Source: Crocinitomicaceae bacterium | Lineage (GTDB): Bacteria; Bacteroidota; Bacteroidia; Flavobacteriales_D; Crocinitomicaceae | Direction: 5' to 3' | DNA length: 64,000 bases | Assembly: GCA_024643365.1 (NCBI GenBank) | Contig: JAHENC010000021.1 | Span: 1 to 64,000 of the forward strand | In this document: piece after piece, positions 4,029 through 10,549 of the stretch | Layout: each line of letters begins with the position of its first letter | Numbering within the stretch: position 1 is the first letter of the stretch | Notes under the pieces: generated by a model | What the model was told of the DNA's origin: nothing | Databases searched by the model: none | What the model saw: only the letters and a program-made list of their open reading frames with translations | Translations under genes and position numbers: made by a program

Positions 4029-7000
4029 TTGATAAAAATGTCTAATCAAGCAACTTTAAGTCACTATTTTGCGTTATTGCTAAGACCTAAACTACTAGCT
4101 TCCTTCATGCGCATACTATTAGCTGTAATTCTACTTGCATTGACGTTTTTTTCGCGTGCACAAACACCTACAGCTAATTTTACAGCAAATCCTTTGGTGG
4201 TGTGTGTTGGTGTCCCGGTGAACTTTACGAATACTTCGCTGCCAAATGGAGCAAGTGCCATCGTTTCAAATGCTTGGGATTTTGGAGATGGGGCACTTTC
4301 AACACTGGTTAGCCCATCTCATGCGTTCAGCACAGCAGGTACATTTACCATTACTTTAGTCGTGACAAATTCAGTTGGTAACGTGGATGCAGAAATAAAA
4401 ACGGCTTTTATCACTGTAAATCCCCTACCGATTGTTGCCTTTTCTGTTAACGGTTTGGGTTGTACCGTTCCTCTGACCTTGTCCTTTGTCAATAATTCTT
4501 CAAGTGGAGCGAATTTCAGTAATGCTTGGAATTTTGGGAATAGTCAAAACTCAAGTGCCGCGAATCCACCAAATATTACCTATAATTCAGCCGGAAATTA
4601 TACCATTACTTTAAACGTTACGAATACAACTACTTCCTGTATAGCCACAAGTACACAAAGCATTCAAGTAGCAAATTTCCAAGCTGGAATTACAGCTCCT
4701 ACCTTTGGCTGTGTTGGACAAGCGATTTCATTTCAAGATAATTCAACCGCTGGAGCGAATTCATGGAGTTGGAATTTTGGTACCCAAGGAAACAGCTCCT
4801 TGGAAAATCCTTCTTTCGCATTCAATGCTCCTGGAACATATACTGTTCAATTGACCTCACAAAATACGAGCTCAGGTTGTACCTCAACGATAACACAACC
4901 CATTACCATTCAAGCTAATACGAATCCAATTTTTAGTGCGAATCCAACTACGAATTGTGCACCAGGATCCATACAATTTACCAGTAACACAACAATTCCA
5001 GGTACATATGTTTGGTCTTTTGGAGATGGTCAAACCTACACAGGATTGACACCACCGCCTCATGTTTATACACAAAGTGGCTTGTACGATGTCACACTAA
5101 GTCTAACTACAGCAGCTGGATGCACTGGTTTAACGACCTTGAATGATTATATAAATATTACAAACGTACAAGCTGGATTCTATGCCATTGATACTGCAGG
5201 TTGTGATCCACTCATTGTAAATTTCATTGATACTTCTTTTACGCCATCGAACCCCATTGTTAGTTGGCAATGGAATTTCGGAAATGGTCAAACCTTCAAT
5301 GGTCATTTTCCACCAGCACAATCATATCCAGTTGGCGTTTACGATGTTCAATTAATTATCACCACCCAATCAGGCTGTACGGATACAATCATTAAAAACG
5401 ATTATGTCACTGTAGGACACATTGACTCCGTAAATTTCACCTACAATCCATTGATTGCTTGCTCCAACGAAGATGTAATATTCACCAGTTCAACATATAT
5501 CTCAGTACCGCACACTGCCAATGAAGTTACATATTTCTGGGATTTTGGTGACGGTACATCCATTGACCAGAATCCAACACACCAATTTCAATCAGATACG
5601 GGCTATTTCGACGTAACATTCATAGCAGACTTTCGGGGTTGTAAGGATACGTTTATCGTTGAAGATGCCGTTTATATTCTCGCGCCAATTGCTCAATTTA
5701 CACCGAGTTCTTTTCTGTTTTGTAATCCAAGCTCCTTTCCTGTAAACGTTACCATCGATGATAATTCCATTCATGGGGTACTTTCCGATAATGTAGACAT
5801 GCATTATGAGTTCTTTGATAATACACCAAATGTAAATTTCACCAATGCCCAACTCGATGTCCCCAACGGTGGAAATACTAGTCATACCTATTCAACGTAT
5901 GGAACATATAACATTGAACAGGTCATACACAACTATACCACCGGCTGCTCTGACAGTATCACTTCAACCATAACCATTTCTCAGTTGGCCAGTCAGTTCA
6001 GTATGTCCAATGATACTGTTTGTAACGGCACAGCCATCAATTTAACGGATATCAGTACTTCATGGAGTAGTGCTTCGGGATCACATCCAGTAAGTAATTG
6101 GTTTTACAACATGGGAAATGGTCAGTTTATTAATAATGCACCGAATATTTCCTATACCTATCCGGCTCCAGGAAATTACACCATTTCACACATGGTGATC
6201 AATAGTGTGGGTTGTTCATCAACGGCCACACAGACGGTTAAAGTTGTGAATAAACCGATTGCTGGAATTCTAGCGAATACGTACAATGGTTGTTCACCTT
6301 TTACAGTTCCTTTCACCAATTCATCTTTTAGTCTATCAAATGGACTTCCATTAAGTTCATTCAGTACCAATTTTTCAGATGATAATTCCACGATAGTTAC
6401 GAATAATGTCAATCAACCCATCGTTCATACCTTCTTTGGAGAAGGGGCTTACACCGCTACTATCATAGCAACTGATATTTTCGGCTGTACATCCTTGCCA
6501 ACCGGAGTGACCATTACCATTACGAAACCGACAGCAGACTTTGACATCGATACTGTTTTATGTGATTTGGATACGAATCTAACGATCAACCAATCGACTG
6601 GTACAGGCAATTTAAGTTACGAATGGTTTCTGAATGGTTCAACGATTGGAACGAGTACAGACACGCTTGTTACCTTAACTAATCCAAATAATGGGCAATT
6701 GTCAAATTCGCACATTTTAACACTCATTACTACGGATGGAAATGGCTGCAAAGACACCATTGATCGCACCTTGATTATGTCAACGCCGTTAGCCATTCCA
6801 AATTTCTACTTCACCGGTGCTATTCCAAATTCAAACGGCGAATACGATTGTCCTCCAATCTTTTGTAATTTTCAAGATTCCTCCTTCTCCTATGGTGACA
6901 TTACTGGATGGAATTGGTCATTTGGGAATGGAAACAACTCCATACTTCAGAATCCGTCAAATACGCTTGTGACCAACGGAACCTTTGATTTAAACTTCAT

Positions 7001-7856
7001 TGTGACAGATCAATATGGTTGTACCGATGATTCAACGGTGCTGAACTACATTTCAATTGGCGGTCCGATGGGTACACCAAATTGGCTACAAGATGCCACG
7101 ATTTGCACACAAGGAGCGCTGTTTTACTTGACGAATATATCTAACATCGATAGTTTAGTTTGGAATCTAGGTGATGGCACTATCTACTCTGATTCGTTAA
7201 ACTTTAATTACTTCTACGCAACACCAGGGACATACCAACCAAGCATTACCATTTTCGACTCTGTTGGGTGTCAGATTCTTATGCCTTTAGATCCAATTAC
7301 GGTAAATGACGACGATTTGGATGCCTTTTTTGTTCCAAATCCAGTTTATGCGGACATAAACGGGATCATCAATTTTAATGACCAATCAACCTTTACAAAT
7401 GCACCGATTGTCAGTTGGACCTGGAATTTAGATGCAGACACGTCCTTTACTTGGACATCCAACATTGCACCAACAACAACCTTTTCAGAAGGTGGTCCTC
7501 ATGTCATCACACTCACAGTTGTAGATCAAGTAGGATGTATTTCAACGTACGAAACAACTGTTTTCGTAAGTGATCCGGACATTTGGATACCAAACGTGTT
7601 TACACCAAATGGGGATGGTGTCAATGACTTCGTGGTACTACCATATCCAGCATTTAAATCCTATGACATATCCATTTTCAATCGCTGGGGTAATTTGGTA
7701 AGCATTTTAGAGGATCAAACCGGTGTAGCTGCTTGGGATGGACTTTCGACCGATGGAAAACCACATACGGATGGTGTCTATTTTTACTTGTTAAACGGCG
7801 TCATGCTAGGTGGAACCGAAATCAAAAAACAAGGATTTATCACCTTGATTCGCTAA
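4029..7856 (+). CDS. Giant PKD-repeat secreted protein with T9SS type B (gliding-associated) C-terminal domain
   Basis: A 1275-aa extracellular protein. A signal peptide (MRILLAVILLALTFFSRA, cleaved before QTPT) begins at internal Met27; starting at 4107 would give a conventional signal peptide, while the A-rich sequence before 4029 favours the longer form. The body holds about ten PKD-type Ig-like modules, recognised by repeated W-D/N-F-G-D/N-G turns (WDFGDG, WNFGNG, WSFGDG, WNLGDG), many with one cysteine pair. The last ~85 residues (IPNVFTPNGDGVND ... SIFNRWGNLV ... DGVYFYLL) are the CHU_C/type B T9SS sorting domain. Such proteins are secreted through the outer membrane and act as adhesins or surface scaffolds. 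It is flanked by about 140-190 bp on each side and is probably its own transcription unit. Confidence 0.93.
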   Translation: MIKMSNQATLSHYFALLLRPKLLASFMRILLAVILLALTFFSRAQTPTANFTANPLVVCVGVPVNFTNTSLPNGASAIVSNAWDFGDGALSTLVSPSHAFSTAGTFTITLVVTNSVGNVDAEIKTAFITVNPLPIVAFSVNGLGCTVPLTLSFVNNSSSGANFSNAWNFGNSQNSSAANPPNITYNSAGNYTITLNVTNTTTSCIATSTQSIQVANFQAGITAPTFGCVGQAISFQDNSTAGANSWSWNFGTQGNSSLENPSFAFNAPGTYTVQLTSQNTSSGCTSTITQPITIQANTNPIFSANPTTNCAPGSIQFTSNTTIPGTYVWSFGDGQTYTGLTPPPHVYTQSGLYDVTLSLTTAAGCTGLTTLNDYINITNVQAGFYAIDTAGCDPLIVNFIDTSFTPSNPIVSWQWNFGNGQTFNGHFPPAQSYPVGVYDVQLIITTQSGCTDTIIKNDYVTVGHIDSVNFTYNPLIACSNEDVIFTSSTYISVPHTANEVTYFWDFGDGTSIDQNPTHQFQSDTGYFDVTFIADFRGCKDTFIVEDAVYILAPIAQFTPSSFLFCNPSSFPVNVTIDDNSIHGVLSDNVDMHYEFFDNTPNVNFTNAQLDVPNGGNTSHTYSTYGTYNIEQVIHNYTTGCSDSITSTITISQLASQFSMSNDTVCNGTAINLTDISTSWSSASGSHPVSNWFYNMGNGQFINNAPNISYTYPAPGNYTISHMVINSVGCSSTATQTVKVVNKPIAGILANTYNGCSPFTVPFTNSSFSLSNGLPLSSFSTNFSDDNSTIVTNNVNQPIVHTFFGEGAYTATIIATDIFGCTSLPTGVTITITKPTADFDIDTVLCDLDTNLTINQSTGTGNLSYEWFLNGSTIGTSTDTLVTLTNPNNGQLSNSHILTLITTDGNGCKDTIDRTLIMSTPLAIPNFYFTGAIPNSNGEYDCPPIFCNFQDSSFSYGDITGWNWSFGNGNNSILQNPSNTLVTNGTFDLNFIVTDQYGCTDDSTVLNYISIGGPMGTPNWLQDATICTQGALFYLTNISNIDSLVWNLGDGTIYSDSLNFNYFYATPGTYQPSITIFDSVGCQILMPLDPITVNDDDLDAFFVPNPVYADINGIINFNDQSTFTNAPIVSWTWNLDADTSFTWTSNIAPTTTFSEGGPHVITLTVVDQVGCISTYETTVFVSDPDIWIPNVFTPNGDGVNDFVVLPYPAFKSYDISIFNRWGNLVSILEDQTGVAAWDGLSTDGKPHTDGVYFYLLNGVMLGGTEIKKQGFITLIR

Positions 7857-7906
7857 TCTCATAATTTCGAGCAACAAATATTAACTACTTCCCACTGGGT
7901 CGCAGT

Positions 7907-7963
7907 TTACCGCATTAGCTCACCAGACAAGGAAAAGAGTTTCAAAACATACACAAAATACAT
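7907..7963 (-). pseudogene. Remnant start of a second GIY-YIG nuclease gene
   Basis: Read on the minus strand this begins ATG TAT TTT GTG TAT GTT TTG AAA and gives MYFVYVLK followed by ten unrelated residues and TAA. The first seven residues equal those of the intact neighbouring GIY-YIG protein, but codons 6-7 differ silently (GTT TTG against GTA TTA), so protein-level similarity extends just beyond the 77-bp identical DNA repeat. As in the intact copy, it starts three bases after a tRNA-type terminator T-tract. I read it as the stump of an older cassette; chance for the last residues cannot be excluded. Confidence 0.4.
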
Positions 7964-8023
7964 CTCAAAAAAAAAGTCCTGACGTTTCCGTCAGGACTTT
8001 TGCTAGTGGTGCCTCCAGGAATC
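7947..8023. repeat. 77-bp perfect direct repeat, copy 1 (tRNA-Phe 3' end + terminator + GIY-YIG start)
   Basis: These 77 bases are identical to 8276-8352, offset 329 bp. In minus-strand order the repeat contains the last ~17 nt of tRNA-Phe (from the T-loop to the discriminator), the tRNA terminator hairpin with its nine-T tail, and the first 17 nt of a GIY-YIG reading frame. Perfect identity over non-coding DNA implies a recent duplication or insertion, or ongoing conversion. Confidence 0.95.
7967..8001 (-). terminator. Duplicated tRNA-Phe terminator
   Basis: This is the copy of the hairpin at 8296-8330: a 13-bp stem (AAAAGTCCTGACG with CGTCAGGACTTTT) around a TTTC loop. Read on the minus strand it is followed by a nine-T tract. 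Here it closes transcription of the GIY-YIG gene. Confidence 0.85.
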
Positions 8024-8037
8024 TCCGCCGCGGCGGA
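8024..8037. repeat. 14-bp perfect GC palindrome TCCGCCGCGGCGGA inside a tRNA T-loop copy
   Basis: TCCGCCG followed by CGGCGGA is a perfect inverted repeat, entirely GC apart from its end bases in an AT-rich genome. It sits where the duplicated tRNA-Phe T-loop should be: GATTCCTGG-type tRNA sequence lies on one side and GTCCCTGG on the other. It could be a nuclease recognition or cleavage site, or a stem of a cassette-borne structured RNA. Confidence 0.85.
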
Positions 8038-8046
8038 CCAGGGACT

Positions 8047-8292
8047 TTAATATCCCGTCTTTTGCTTAATGTAATCTCGTCCTTTTCCTGTTTTTAATTC
8101 CTTTTCTCGGATGATGGCTTCCTTTCTAGTGGAGAATTCCTCCACATGTATCAAAATCCAAGGACCTTTTCCTTTTGTGAACTTTCCTAATAATCCTTGA
8201 TTGTGTTCATTTAATCGACGTGGGAGATCTTCAGTATAGCCAGTATACTTACATTTTGCCTTTTCCGAATATAATACATACACAAAATACAT
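8047..8292 (-). CDS. Solitary GIY-YIG nuclease-domain protein, 81 aa
   Basis: The whole protein is one GIY-YIG domain: FVYVLYS (the GIY strand), YTGYT (the YIG strand) at about 16-20, catalytic Arg at 25/26 in DLPRRLNEHN, and the metal-binding Glu in AIIREKELK (about 63-65). Single-domain GIY-YIG proteins (UPF0213/YhbQ-like) are common and of unclear role; the fold cuts DNA in UvrC and in homing nucleases. The ATG lies three bases after the T-tract of the tRNA-Phe terminator, with no promoter of its own visible, so it would be expressed by read-through from the tRNA. Its stop codon is followed within two bases by a partial tRNA-Phe 3' end interrupted by a GC palindrome. The arrangement suggests a mobile cassette. 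Confidence 0.93.
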   Translation of the reverse strand: MYFVYVLYSEKAKCKYTGYTEDLPRRLNEHNQGLLGKFTKGKGPWILIHVEEFSTRKEAIIREKELKTGKGRDYIKQKTGY

Positions 8293-8352
8293 CTCAAAAA
8301 AAAAGTCCTGACGTTTCCGTCAGGACTTTTGCTAGTGGTGCCTCCAGGAATC
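8276..8352. repeat. 77-bp perfect direct repeat, copy 2 (native tRNA-Phe side)
   Basis: Identical to 7947-8023. This copy covers the genuine 3' end of tRNA-Phe, its terminator and the first 17 nt of the intact GIY-YIG gene. Together the two copies delimit a 329-bp unit. Confidence 0.95.
8296..8330 (-). terminator. Intrinsic terminator of tRNA-Phe
   Basis: A 13-bp perfect stem (8301-8313 with 8318-8330) and a TTTC loop. On the minus strand nine T residues follow (8304-8296). It starts six bases after the tRNA 3' end. Confidence 0.93.
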
Positions 8353-8408
8353 GAACCAGGGACACAAGGATTTTCAGTCCTTTGCTCTACCAACTGAGCT
8401 AAGGCACC
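8336..8408 (-). tRNA. tRNA-Phe (anticodon GAA)
   Basis: Reading the minus strand: acceptor GGTGCCT pairs with AGGCACC, the D-arm contains AGCTCAGTTGGTAGAGC, the anticodon loop CTGAAAA is closed by AAGGA/TCCTT and gives GAA, the T-arm is CCTGG-TTCGATT-CCTGG-like, and the discriminator is A. The 73-nt cloverleaf is complete. CCA is not encoded (ACTA follows), so it must be added by the CCA enzyme. The variable-loop region is short (class I). Its 3' portion is duplicated at about 8010-8023. Confidence 0.97.
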
Positions 8409-8422
8409 AGCTATTGGTGGGG

Positions 8423-8455
8423 CAAATTTAACACTTTTTTTTATTTCTAATCAAA
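8423..8455 (-). promoter_or_regulatory. Promoter of tRNA-Phe
   Basis: On the minus strand, a -33 TTTG (8455-8452) and a -7 box TAAATTTG (8430-8423) are separated by 21 nt. The box ends 14 nt before the tRNA 5' end. This matches the Bacteroidota TTTG / TAnnTTTG promoter form. Confidence 0.65.
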
Positions 8456-8484
8456 AAGTCGCGTAAATTTCTTTGAAAGCTACT

Positions 8485-8492
8485 TAACTTTG
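8485..8492 (+). promoter_or_regulatory. -7 box of coaX, four bases before the ATG
   Basis: TAACTTTG ends four nt before the coaX ATG at 8497, so the transcript start should fall at or next to the A of the start codon (predicted leaderless). Confidence 0.55.
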
Positions 8493-8496
8493 TGTC

Positions 8497-9225
8497 ATGC
8501 TCGACGAAACAACTGCCTATTTATTGGATGCTGGGAACACTCAAGTGAAACTTGGATCAGTGATAAACGGTGTGGTTTCTCATGTTAAACGCTTCGATTT
8601 GAGCTCTTTTCCTTGGAATGAAATCGATGGTAACATTCCTATCGTCATATCGTCTGTGCTTACAGAAGAATGGAAAAAACCACTGGAAGATTTTTTTCAT
8701 AACAGGATTTACATCAATGCTCAAATGAATTTGCCTTTCAAAATGGACTACCTAACTCCCGAAACATTGGGAATCGACCGTCTGTGCAATATGGCAGCTG
8801 TGGCAAGCAAGAATACAACGAAAGCAAAATTAGTTGTTGATCTAGGAACCTGCATCAAATTTGACTTCATGAGTTCAACGCAAACGTATGAAGGTGGATC
8901 CATTTCCCCCGGATTAGAGATGAGAGCGAAATCCCTGCAAACGTTTACCGCAAAACTACCGTTGATTCCAGTTCTTTCAACTGCGACACTCATTGGAAAA
9001 AATACGAAGGAATCCATTGAAAGTGGTGTATTTAATGGATGGAAAGCCGAAATCACCCAATTTATCCAACTATACCAAACAAAATTCCCTGAATTAGACG
9101 TTTACCTCACTGGAGGAGACGCACGATATTTTGATTTCGAGCAAAAAAGTAACATCTTTGTACTCGAACATTTAACCCTAGAAGGAATTCTAGAAATTTA
9201 CCGTCTGAATGAAGATTCTCTTTAA
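8497..9225 (+). CDS. coaX: Type III pantothenate kinase CoaX
   Basis: A 242-aa ASKHA-fold kinase that catalyses the first step of CoA synthesis (pantothenate to 4'-phosphopantothenate). Motifs are in order: LLDAGNT (residues 9-15, phosphate 1), GIDR (92-95), DLGT (115-118, phosphate 2) and GGSISPGL (133-140). Type III enzymes lack feedback inhibition by CoA and usually need a monovalent cation. Its length is slightly under the usual 250-260 aa. It overlaps the next gene by 17 bp, so it begins an operon with an outer-membrane protein and lptC, a common order in Bacteroidota. Confidence 0.95.
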   Translation: MLDETTAYLLDAGNTQVKLGSVINGVVSHVKRFDLSSFPWNEIDGNIPIVISSVLTEEWKKPLEDFFHNRIYINAQMNLPFKMDYLTPETLGIDRLCNMAAVASKNTTKAKLVVDLGTCIKFDFMSSTQTYEGGSISPGLEMRAKSLQTFTAKLPLIPVLSTATLIGKNTKESIESGVFNGWKAEITQFIQLYQTKFPELDVYLTGGDARYFDFEQKSNIFVLEHLTLEGILEIYRLNEDSL

Positions 9226-10549
9226 TTTCCTTGTCCTTTTTGTTTTCTCACAAACTTGGTCGCAATCTACTACCAATCAACCTGCTTCCTACTACGGACT
9301 CGGTGAAAGTTCAGCACAAAACCATGGCATTTTCGATGCATTAGGTAAAAACACCATCAATGTATTTGACTCCACAATTTTGAATTTTTATAATCCAGCA
9401 ACATATAACACGCTCAGTACAGGAAATACTCTTTATTCGTATGGAATTCAAACAAGAATTTCTAATTATTCTGAGCAATCCAAAACGCAAGTTGGATTTA
9501 CCGGAATGATCGATCATATTGCCATTGGGGTAAGAATCAAAAAAAACATGGGACTCGCTTTCGGATTAAAACCTTATTCGGCGAGAGGTTACCAAATTAC
9601 CGACAAATCTTTTACCGGTTTCGATTCATTGGAATATACTTACAAAGGTAGCGGAGCCATTCAGGACTTATTTTTAGGCTATTCTTACGGACTCGTTTAT
9701 CGTCCCAAAACCAAACTTTCGATTGGCGGTAACGCTTCGTATTTATTTGGGACAGTAACCAATGAACGTCAAGCAAAATTAATCGCTTCTGGTTCTAATC
9801 AAGGTGGAATAAACATCAACTCCTTGATTATACGTTCATTTCACTACGAACTCGGAGCCTATTTTCAGCAACAACTTGGTAAAAACCATTTGATCAGTCT
9901 TAGTTCTGTATATCTCCCTAATCAAACCATCACTGGTGATTACCAAGATGAATTTTACACCGCATCAAACATAAACTCTAGTTCAACTTATGACACCATC
10001 GCGTTTAGTCGTAGTCGCATTCACTTGTTGAACTCATCCACTTTAGAACTTGGTCTTAACTACAGCATTCTACTTCCAAGATGGAAACGCGAAACAAGAG
10101 AACTTCATCCAAAATTGAGTTTGATGGCTTCCCTTTATCAATTTGGTGCACTTGATCACAATGCTCATGATTTAATTCCTGACTTCGGAATGACTTCATT
10201 TCAACGTCTTTCTTTTGGTGCACAATTTAGTCCAGAGTCCCGATTGATGGAAAACATTTCTACCTTGAAGGGTTTAGAGAAAATGACTTATCGAATTGGT
10301 TACTACACGCAATCTCTGCCATACACCACGAATGCAATTCAATACCAAGAATCTGCAGTAAGTTTTGGATTAGGACTTCCTATTATGGCTCAAATGTCAG
10401 CTTCTTCCGTTAACTTCTCCATTAATTTGGGTTCTCGCACTAGCAATCAAAGTTTCGGAATACAAGAGAAATTTGCTTCCGTAAATCTAAGTTTTATACT
10501 TGCACCCTCCAATTTTGACAAGTGGTTCAGACAACGAAAATTGGATTAA
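9209..10549 (+). CDS. Outer-membrane beta-barrel protein (coaX-lptC linked)
   Basis: 446 aa with a signal peptide (MKILFNFLVLFVFSQTWSQ, cleavage before STTN). The mature protein starts SYYGLGESSAQ and has a FYNPATYNTL segment like FadL/OMPP1-type barrels, then many alternating hydrophobic/aromatic strands ending in SVNLSFILAPSNFDKWF. No catalytic motif is seen and the exact family is not certain. Position between coaX and lptC is conserved in many Bacteroidota and hints at an envelope-assembly role, which is inference. It overlaps coaX (17 bp) and lptC (28 bp). Confidence 0.75.
   Translation: MKILFNFLVLFVFSQTWSQSTTNQPASYYGLGESSAQNHGIFDALGKNTINVFDSTILNFYNPATYNTLSTGNTLYSYGIQTRISNYSEQSKTQVGFTGMIDHIAIGVRIKKNMGLAFGLKPYSARGYQITDKSFTGFDSLEYTYKGSGAIQDLFLGYSYGLVYRPKTKLSIGGNASYLFGTVTNERQAKLIASGSNQGGININSLIIRSFHYELGAYFQQQLGKNHLISLSSVYLPNQTITGDYQDEFYTASNINSSSTYDTIAFSRSRIHLLNSSTLELGLNYSILLPRWKRETRELHPKLSLMASLYQFGALDHNAHDLIPDFGMTSFQRLSFGAQFSPESRLMENISTLKGLEKMTYRIGYYTQSLPYTTNAIQYQESAVSFGLGLPIMAQMSASSVNFSINLGSRTSNQSFGIQEKFASVNLSFILAPSNFDKWFRQRKLD

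Follow-up and report, generated by a model that had tools for sequence, protein, structure and literature searches.

The window, the 64,000-nucleotide stretch of Crocinitomicaceae DNA analysed here, carries on its minus strand an intact tRNA-Phe gene followed in order by a terminator, a small GIY-YIG nuclease gene, a tRNA-Phe copy split by a palindrome, an identical terminator and the stump of a second nuclease gene (Table 1), an arrangement that had been predicted with coordinates and a description that hold. An 80-nt direct repeat (7944-8023 versus 8273-8352; 99% identity) recurs at a spacing of exactly 329 bp and includes 77 identical bases (7947-8023 and 8276-8352), which were recovered unchanged from the original prediction, and perfect 13-bp hairpins followed by T-runs stand at 7972-8001 and 8301-8330. 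The 81-aa open reading frame matched the Pfam GIY-YIG domain (PF01541, E = 7.6e-19); its start lies 3 bases past the T-run, as had been claimed, and its stop lies one base, not two, ahead of the tRNA piece. The palindrome TCCGCCGCGGCGGA is bordered by this 8-nt tRNA piece on one side and by an 18-nt tRNA 3' end on the other.

Within the 329-bp unit, the GIY-YIG frame is the longest, two 60-aa frames overlap either it or the tRNA, and the tyrosine or serine integrase that marks integrase-type tRNA islands was not found. In an Rfam scan of positions 7000-9500, tRNA alone passed the gathering score and no other known RNA was detected. The possibility of a defence system was rejected after PADLOC gave no match. 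The neighbouring genes are coaX, which encodes a type III pantothenate kinase, and one for a PKD/CHU_C protein that bears a type IX secretion signal; the closest named relatives are Crocinitomicaceae and Flavobacteriales metagenome-assembled genomes (MAGs).

Table 1. Parts of the tRNA-Phe locus and of the 329-bp unit in the window
Feature	Position	Strand	Basis
Intact tRNA-Phe (gaa)	8335..8408	-	ARAGORN; Rfam tRNA, 70.3 bits
Last 18 nt of the intact tRNA-Phe; copy brought by the element under the model	8335-8352	-	T-arm copy match
TTC, tRNA positions 54-56 (T-loop); replaced by the palindrome in the displaced copy	8353..8355	-	
Element-borne terminator, 13-bp perfect stem and T-run	8296..8330	-	Repeat/hairpin search
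GIY-YIG nuclease gene, 81 aa, with the family-invariant residues	8047..8292	-	ORF list, Pfam
8-nt tRNA-Phe piece, positions 46-53, from directly 5' of the insertion point	8038..8045	-	
Palindrome in place of the T-loop core	8024..8037	-	
Displaced native tRNA-Phe 3' end, positions 57-74, 18 nt	8006..8023	-	
Second terminator copy, native under the model	7967..8001	-	
Stump of a second nuclease copy, 20 bases: start codon and first codons	7944..7963	-	
Entire inserted unit, 329 bp	8024..8352	-	

Related units at other tRNA genes

Relatives of the nuclease were found at many different tRNA genes across Bacteroidota, and the family set comprised 194 nuclease copies in 166 loci (genomes and loci are designated G and L below). 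Within 700 bp, the closest tRNA shared the strand of the nuclease for 139 copies and lay on the opposite one for 0, and 55 copies had no tRNA in that range; the 'downstream' class of this count is slightly inflated, since some palindrome-split copies are reported as tRNAs by ARAGORN (L224, L053 and L060). When only the 140 copies with at least 400 bp of flank on both sides were considered, 108 had an intact same-strand tRNA within 700 bp and 32 had none, several of the latter being inner units of arrays; a protein found mostly away from tRNA genes, an outcome that had been named as fatal to the prediction, was not what we saw. Across the gene from the tRNA, 107 of 129 testable copies had a fragment of that same tRNA, as against 5/129 for the reverse complement, 35/387 for a tRNA of another isotype and 0/73 for a window 700-1065 nt out. 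A GC palindrome abutted the tRNA fragment in 78 of the 129 copies and was undetected in 51, and palindromes stood beside the gene in 47/73 cases versus 7/73 in same-size windows farther out. Copies within one array are not independent, and loci L012 and L226 hold the same gene and flank; counted by locus, the fragment was present in 96/113 and the palindrome in 72/113. The relatives thus behave as anticipated, most of those examined adjoining a tRNA, mostly with a tRNA fragment across the gene and in many cases with a palindrome.

Palindrome-split copies were seen for tRNAs including Met, Phe, Asp, Asn, Ser, Val, Arg, Leu, Pro and Lys, and the position of the palindrome was steady for a given tRNA: 22 of 24 Met rows had it at 36|47, 37|48 or 38|49, although hosts and palindromes differed. 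The original prediction needs extending in that some relatives are mirror images that restore the tRNA 5' half, with the split 5' half upstream and the intact tRNA at the end. In mirror units L054, L057, L162, L175 and L237, the nuclease frame continues into the intact tRNA-Arg, and the final residues of the protein are specified by the 5' end of that tRNA (for example RSSAG, RSSTE or RGATE).

The arrangement was also seen outside Bacteroidota, on two contigs that may be wrongly binned: a Shapirobacteria contig with a tRNA-Lys, fragment and palindrome, and an Omnitrophota contig with a tRNA-Gln and fragment only. Locus L012, on a contig named Melioribacter, and L226 (G599) carry the same nuclease gene and flank, most likely because they represent one organism in two collections, the alternatives being transfer or mis-binning. 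Carriage by phages or plasmids was rejected, given the lack of close relatives in viral contigs, INPHARED and PLSDB: scans of viral contigs turned up nothing related to the window protein and a single 30-residue match to that of L015, and the 21 INPHARED and 18 PLSDB records all had <60% identity.

Occupied, decayed and empty tRNA-Phe loci

Matches to tRNA-Phe were obtained in 84 of 86 genomes of the genus, weak matches to other tRNAs being counted in; 70 tRNA-Phe loci were inspected, and the 68 with at least 800 bp of downstream sequence served as the counting base. An intact nuclease was present at 10 of these 68 loci, all 10 with a palindrome-split T-arm copy, while 8 contained decayed remnants of the element and 50 had no recognised trace, one of the 50 (L123) having a lone T-arm copy at +823. 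The remnants comprised a nuclease 3' end with palindrome (L111), the first 31 codons of the nuclease (L121), a split copy without nuclease (L122), a cut palindrome (L119), nuclease start stumps (L071, L078 and L107) and, in our reading, the element terminator alone (L091). The comparison of orthologous target sites that had been proposed as a check returned all three states, including the empty alleles expected of a homing element, and it also revealed insertion through continuity of the flanks.

When the empty locus of G233 was compared with the occupied locus of G179, the 165 bp past the empty tRNA aligned at 338-495 of the occupied locus (75% identity), starting right behind the displaced tRNA end, although the G233 flank matches occupied loci elsewhere too because terminator-like sequence is locally repeated there. 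The G179 element has a different terminator right after the restored tRNA. Continuity was likewise found between G210 (empty) and G199 (occupied), at +329 and 74% identity. The native flank of the empty relatives thus picks up again past the displaced tRNA end, which places the entry of the unit within the tRNA; as the unit appears to supply a fresh copy of the tRNA end, the tRNA would keep working. Insertion at a tRNA with a restored end had been proposed and stands; the point of entry is the T-loop within the tRNA and not a site behind the terminator. Some empty loci could be precise losses via the direct repeats.

Tandem units and arrays

Units are also stacked in tandem. Two full nuclease copies and a truncated third, at 329-bp spacing, occur in G174 of the same genus (and in L003, which shows the same copies), and we therefore regard the stump in the window as the rest of an older, lost unit. 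Locus L125 (G202) is a stack of a nuclease-less unit, a nuclease unit and a nuclease-less unit with the native terminator last, each unit having its own palindrome, so that nuclease-less derivatives exist besides the nuclease-bearing units. At least 18 genomes, counted by eye, contained two or more same-strand nuclease copies ~310-520 bp apart, and each of the five arrays inspected had one intact tRNA, at the expected end. The G532 array consists of five copies at 315 bp, with consecutive units that are 93.3, 100 and 100% identical and in which no palindrome was recognised, and the two comparable units of the three-copy G370 array are identical.

Fold, selection and spread of the nuclease

The 81-aa protein has both the GIY-YIG domain and the conserved Y, G, R and H/E by which the superfamily is recognised, residues that we take to be those of the active site; Y16, G18, R26, H30 and E63 were invariant in all 113 family proteins. 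Its predicted model (pLDDT 93) matched UPF0213 and Slx1 as nearest folds, then UvrC and, more weakly, I-TevI. The nearest solved structures are UPF0213/YazA-type small GIY-YIG proteins (PDB 1zg2 and 1ywl), which are likewise single-domain and for which we know of no tRNA-embedded repeat anatomy. Slx1 is a branched-DNA nuclease, and since the modelled fold is closest to UPF0213 and Slx1, the protein may possibly be a structure-selective enzyme acting on cruciform DNA.

Among tRNA-Phe nucleases, dN/dS was 0.04-0.18 where measurable, values that indicate purifying selection. Synonymous divergence was compared between the nuclease and the neighbouring coaX gene for the 11 of 45 species pairs listed, coaX being cut short in G199. 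The nuclease was younger in at least four pairs, all from only two species groups: G199/G201 (0 vs 0.35), G199/G191 (0.24 vs 1.82), G201/G191 (0.24 vs 1.22) and G179/G202 (0.12 vs 0.55). Six between-group pairs gave 0.74-0.90 for the nuclease versus 0.84-1.28 for coaX, and G000/G174 (0.23 vs 0.21) looks vertical. Identity peaked over the tRNA and element and fell beyond them, steeply downstream and less so upstream. There are accordingly signs of horizontal spread at the same site, as in homing elements, in four pairs from two species groups, alongside the one vertical-looking pair.

The nuclease tree, built on 87 columns and with many open forks, tracks tRNA isotype: counted on rows with family codes, it needs 22 changes, whereas 200 shuffles averaged 51.0 with a minimum of 46. 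The nearest nuclease from another host family shared the tRNA in 33/93 cases (10.1 expected), and outside the family of the window the nearest nuclease had the same tRNA in 15/23 (2.6 expected). This signal could stem from the tRNA arms of the element and not from nuclease specificity.

The palindrome in and beyond tRNA genes

Beyond what had been predicted, the palindrome replaces a few bases at the insertion point, and it is found at other places in the genomes as well. The TCCGCCGCGGCGGA pattern, with 2 mismatches allowed, was found at 26 places in the genome of the window versus 0 for a backwards-read control, an abundance beyond chance. The palindromes of tRNA-Phe elements differ in their arms (TCC/GGA, TGC/GCA or TTC/GAA), which always pair, and have GC or TA at the centre. 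The form TCCGCCN2-4GGCGGA was present in 44 of 86 genus genomes, with copy numbers across the set of 0-38 (control, 0). Cross-tabulated by hand, it occurred in 35/40 nuclease-positive versus 9/46 nuclease-negative genomes, an association that is partly built in, as the elements themselves contain the palindrome, and is uncorrected for kinship. A flank copy without an intact palindrome lay near 37 of 94 palindromes (element ones included), compared with 60 of 470 positions in the control. In 14 of these 37 cases the palindrome takes the place of exactly 3 nt, and in 3 the second copy holds a palindrome that has mutated. The genome of the window also has two nuclease-less palindrome-split tRNA-Met copies (L034 and L038).

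The TCCGTC palindrome occurs only 1-2 times per genome in G013, G026, G027, G025 and G100, and the tRNA-Met element of G056 carries TCCGTC in a genome with 75 TCCGCC palindromes, control matches in this comparison being above zero in G278 and G509; a host-wide palindrome as the source of the element palindrome is inconsistent with both findings and was rejected. When the split copy was folded as a single strand, the version in the window was no more stable than expected (z = 0.20), and one with another palindrome showed some excess (z = -2.14). At L295-L308 (G174, G056 and G000), the element palindrome stands inside short-repeat tandem arrays and inside terminator-like units that are themselves repeated, in many cases in place of 3 or 6 nt of the neighbouring copy. 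At the tRNA-Met locus L038 (window's genome, C22), other tandem pieces bear a second palindrome, TGCCGATGTATCGGCA.

Interpretation and alternatives

We favour the reading, at a probability of roughly 0.7, that these loci represent a family of tRNA-parasitic, homing-like mini-elements of 0.33 kb living inside tRNA genes. The variable occupancy and the flank continuity support the originally predicted minimal selfish element that restores the tRNA end and terminator. In this reading the unit comprises a copy of the tRNA 3' end, a terminator, a minimal GIY-YIG nuclease, a few bases of tRNA from across the insertion point and a GC palindrome, and it enters at a tRNA loop, which in the window is the T-loop. 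The 3' end and terminator that it brings along complete the tRNA 5' half and leave the tRNA intact, and the native 3' end and terminator are pushed downstream, behind the palindrome. Probably, a break or nick made by the nuclease in the tRNA loop, or at the palindrome junction, allows the unit to be copied in by homologous recombination between the short tRNA repeats. A single crossover between a tRNA and a unit or circle (palindrome - right tRNA piece - cargo - left tRNA piece) could yield one intact and one palindrome-split copy in either arrangement seen, repeated events could build stacks and arrays, and repeat recombination or deletion could remove a unit. The palindrome may perhaps be the nuclease's own recognition or structure site.

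Classical homing introns destroy their own target. Occupied loci here keep an intact tRNA T-loop, disruption being confined to the displaced copy, so the element does not destroy its presumed recognition site; because the restored tRNA keeps its T-loop, we describe the element as homing-like in its working and not as a classical homing element. Several points count against the element reading: 81 aa leaves little room for a separate DNA-binding domain, the G000/G174 pair looks vertical, the younger-nuclease pairs originate from two groups, and there are tRNA-less (32/140) and palindrome-less (51/129) copies.

In an alternative reading, what moves is the palindrome itself, a REP-like sequence mobilised by the small GIY-YIG protein in the way that RAYT mobilises GTAG REPs. 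The tRNA genes would then be only one kind of landing site, and the tRNA duplications would have arisen as by-products when palindrome insertions were duplicated in tandem. The dispersal of the palindrome in about half the genus genomes with control 0, its partly built-in association with nuclease-positive genomes, the excess of palindrome-less flank copies, arms that vary with pairing kept and the nuclease-less tRNA-Met copies would all fit. We nevertheless consider this unlikely, as the strand lock to the tRNA and the isotype tracking are unexpected if tRNAs are incidental targets, and as it sits poorly with the scarcity of TCCGTC palindromes in five genomes and with the TCCGTC element of G056. 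The strong purifying selection could also reflect a nuclease that the host has domesticated and retains for purposes such as tRNA gene dosage or repair, and SegB is reported to raise tRNA dosage by tandem amplification in the available part of PMC13096335; that reading is quite improbable given that the units hold only part of a tRNA, that their presence is patchy with frequent decay, and that the five arrays inspected amplify the nuclease and not the intact tRNA. An old vertical tandem duplication of the tRNA end with a captured gene and no mobility, for which the unit divergence of G000/G174, equal to that of the neighbouring gene, is the evidence, is scarcely credible in view of the presence and absence across 68 loci, the insertions read from G233/G179 and G210/G199, the four pairs with a nuclease younger than coaX and the identical design at many tRNA types. 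The old vertical repeat that would have undone the prediction was thus not found overall, the one species pair apart.

The evidence for tRNA-parasitic mini-elements points to what appears to be a widespread, undescribed family of very small bacterial selfish elements. If so, its members are small enough to pass unnoticed as a 'GIY-YIG family protein' plus a tRNA fragment. More tentatively, and with some doubt on our part, small GIY-YIG nucleases might be the missing mobilisers of short palindromic repeat families, the tRNA units being autonomous, the dispersed palindromes and nuclease-less split copies non-autonomous, and the ~0.33-kb units self-mobile parasites of essential tRNA genes that do no harm; ~0.33 kb would be, to our knowledge, the smallest self-mobile protein-coding DNA unit.

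Relation to known systems

No bacterial tRNA version of such an element was found in the literature searched, in which subscription papers and bioRxiv were thinly covered. The available part of PMC3630166 describes fungal mitochondrial mORF hybrids in Allomyces atp6 and Glomus atp6, atp9, cox2 and nad3, for which horizontal acquisition was proposed. As in the window, an endonuclease gene there comes with a substitute for the 3' end of its target gene, the native end being displaced downstream. The mORF hybrids affect organelle protein genes and mostly involve LAGLIDADG enzymes, with one GIY-YIG (atp9), in the same part of PMC3630166, whereas the present element sits in a tRNA gene on a bacterial chromosome, in a genome most closely related to Flavobacteriales MAGs; it has a terminator, a nuclease of 81 aa and a palindrome, and it forms tandem arrays. 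If our reading is true, the invasion of an essential tRNA is solved by carrying a spare gene end and terminator, a logic shared with the fungal mitochondrial mORFs.

SegB of phages T4/T6 is a free-standing GIY-YIG homing endonuclease encoded next to tRNA genes; the available part of PMC13096335 reports that it cuts DNA containing tRNA genes and that it drives tandem amplification through homologous recombination. It resembles the present element as a GIY-YIG nuclease adjoining tRNA genes and differs in being phage-borne, with no palindrome or target-restoring tRNA half described in that part of the source. The phage collections searched yielded no relative with at least 60% identity to the window protein. 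REP/RAYT systems (REPtrons) share with the element short dispersed palindromes tied to a nuclease gene and small non-autonomous copies, on the available part of PMC3733652. RAYT is an HUH tyrosine transposase in that account, whereas the gene of the present element matches GIY-YIG only, and its palindrome, unlike those of REP/RAYT, lies inside tRNA copies at steady positions.

Another GIY-YIG group of the family, with no tRNA nearby, was encountered at L052, L154, L166 and L167 between 'gttagaaat'-type and 'cggggc'-/'cgtggc'-type sequences. CGTC/GTCATT-type palindromes are a class reported without a dedicated transposase in the available part of PMC3733652, and related small GIY-YIG genes that lack a tRNA adjoin palindromes or repeats of this type at L029, L030 and L031 (Zixibacteria, Howlettbacteria and Tenacibaculum).
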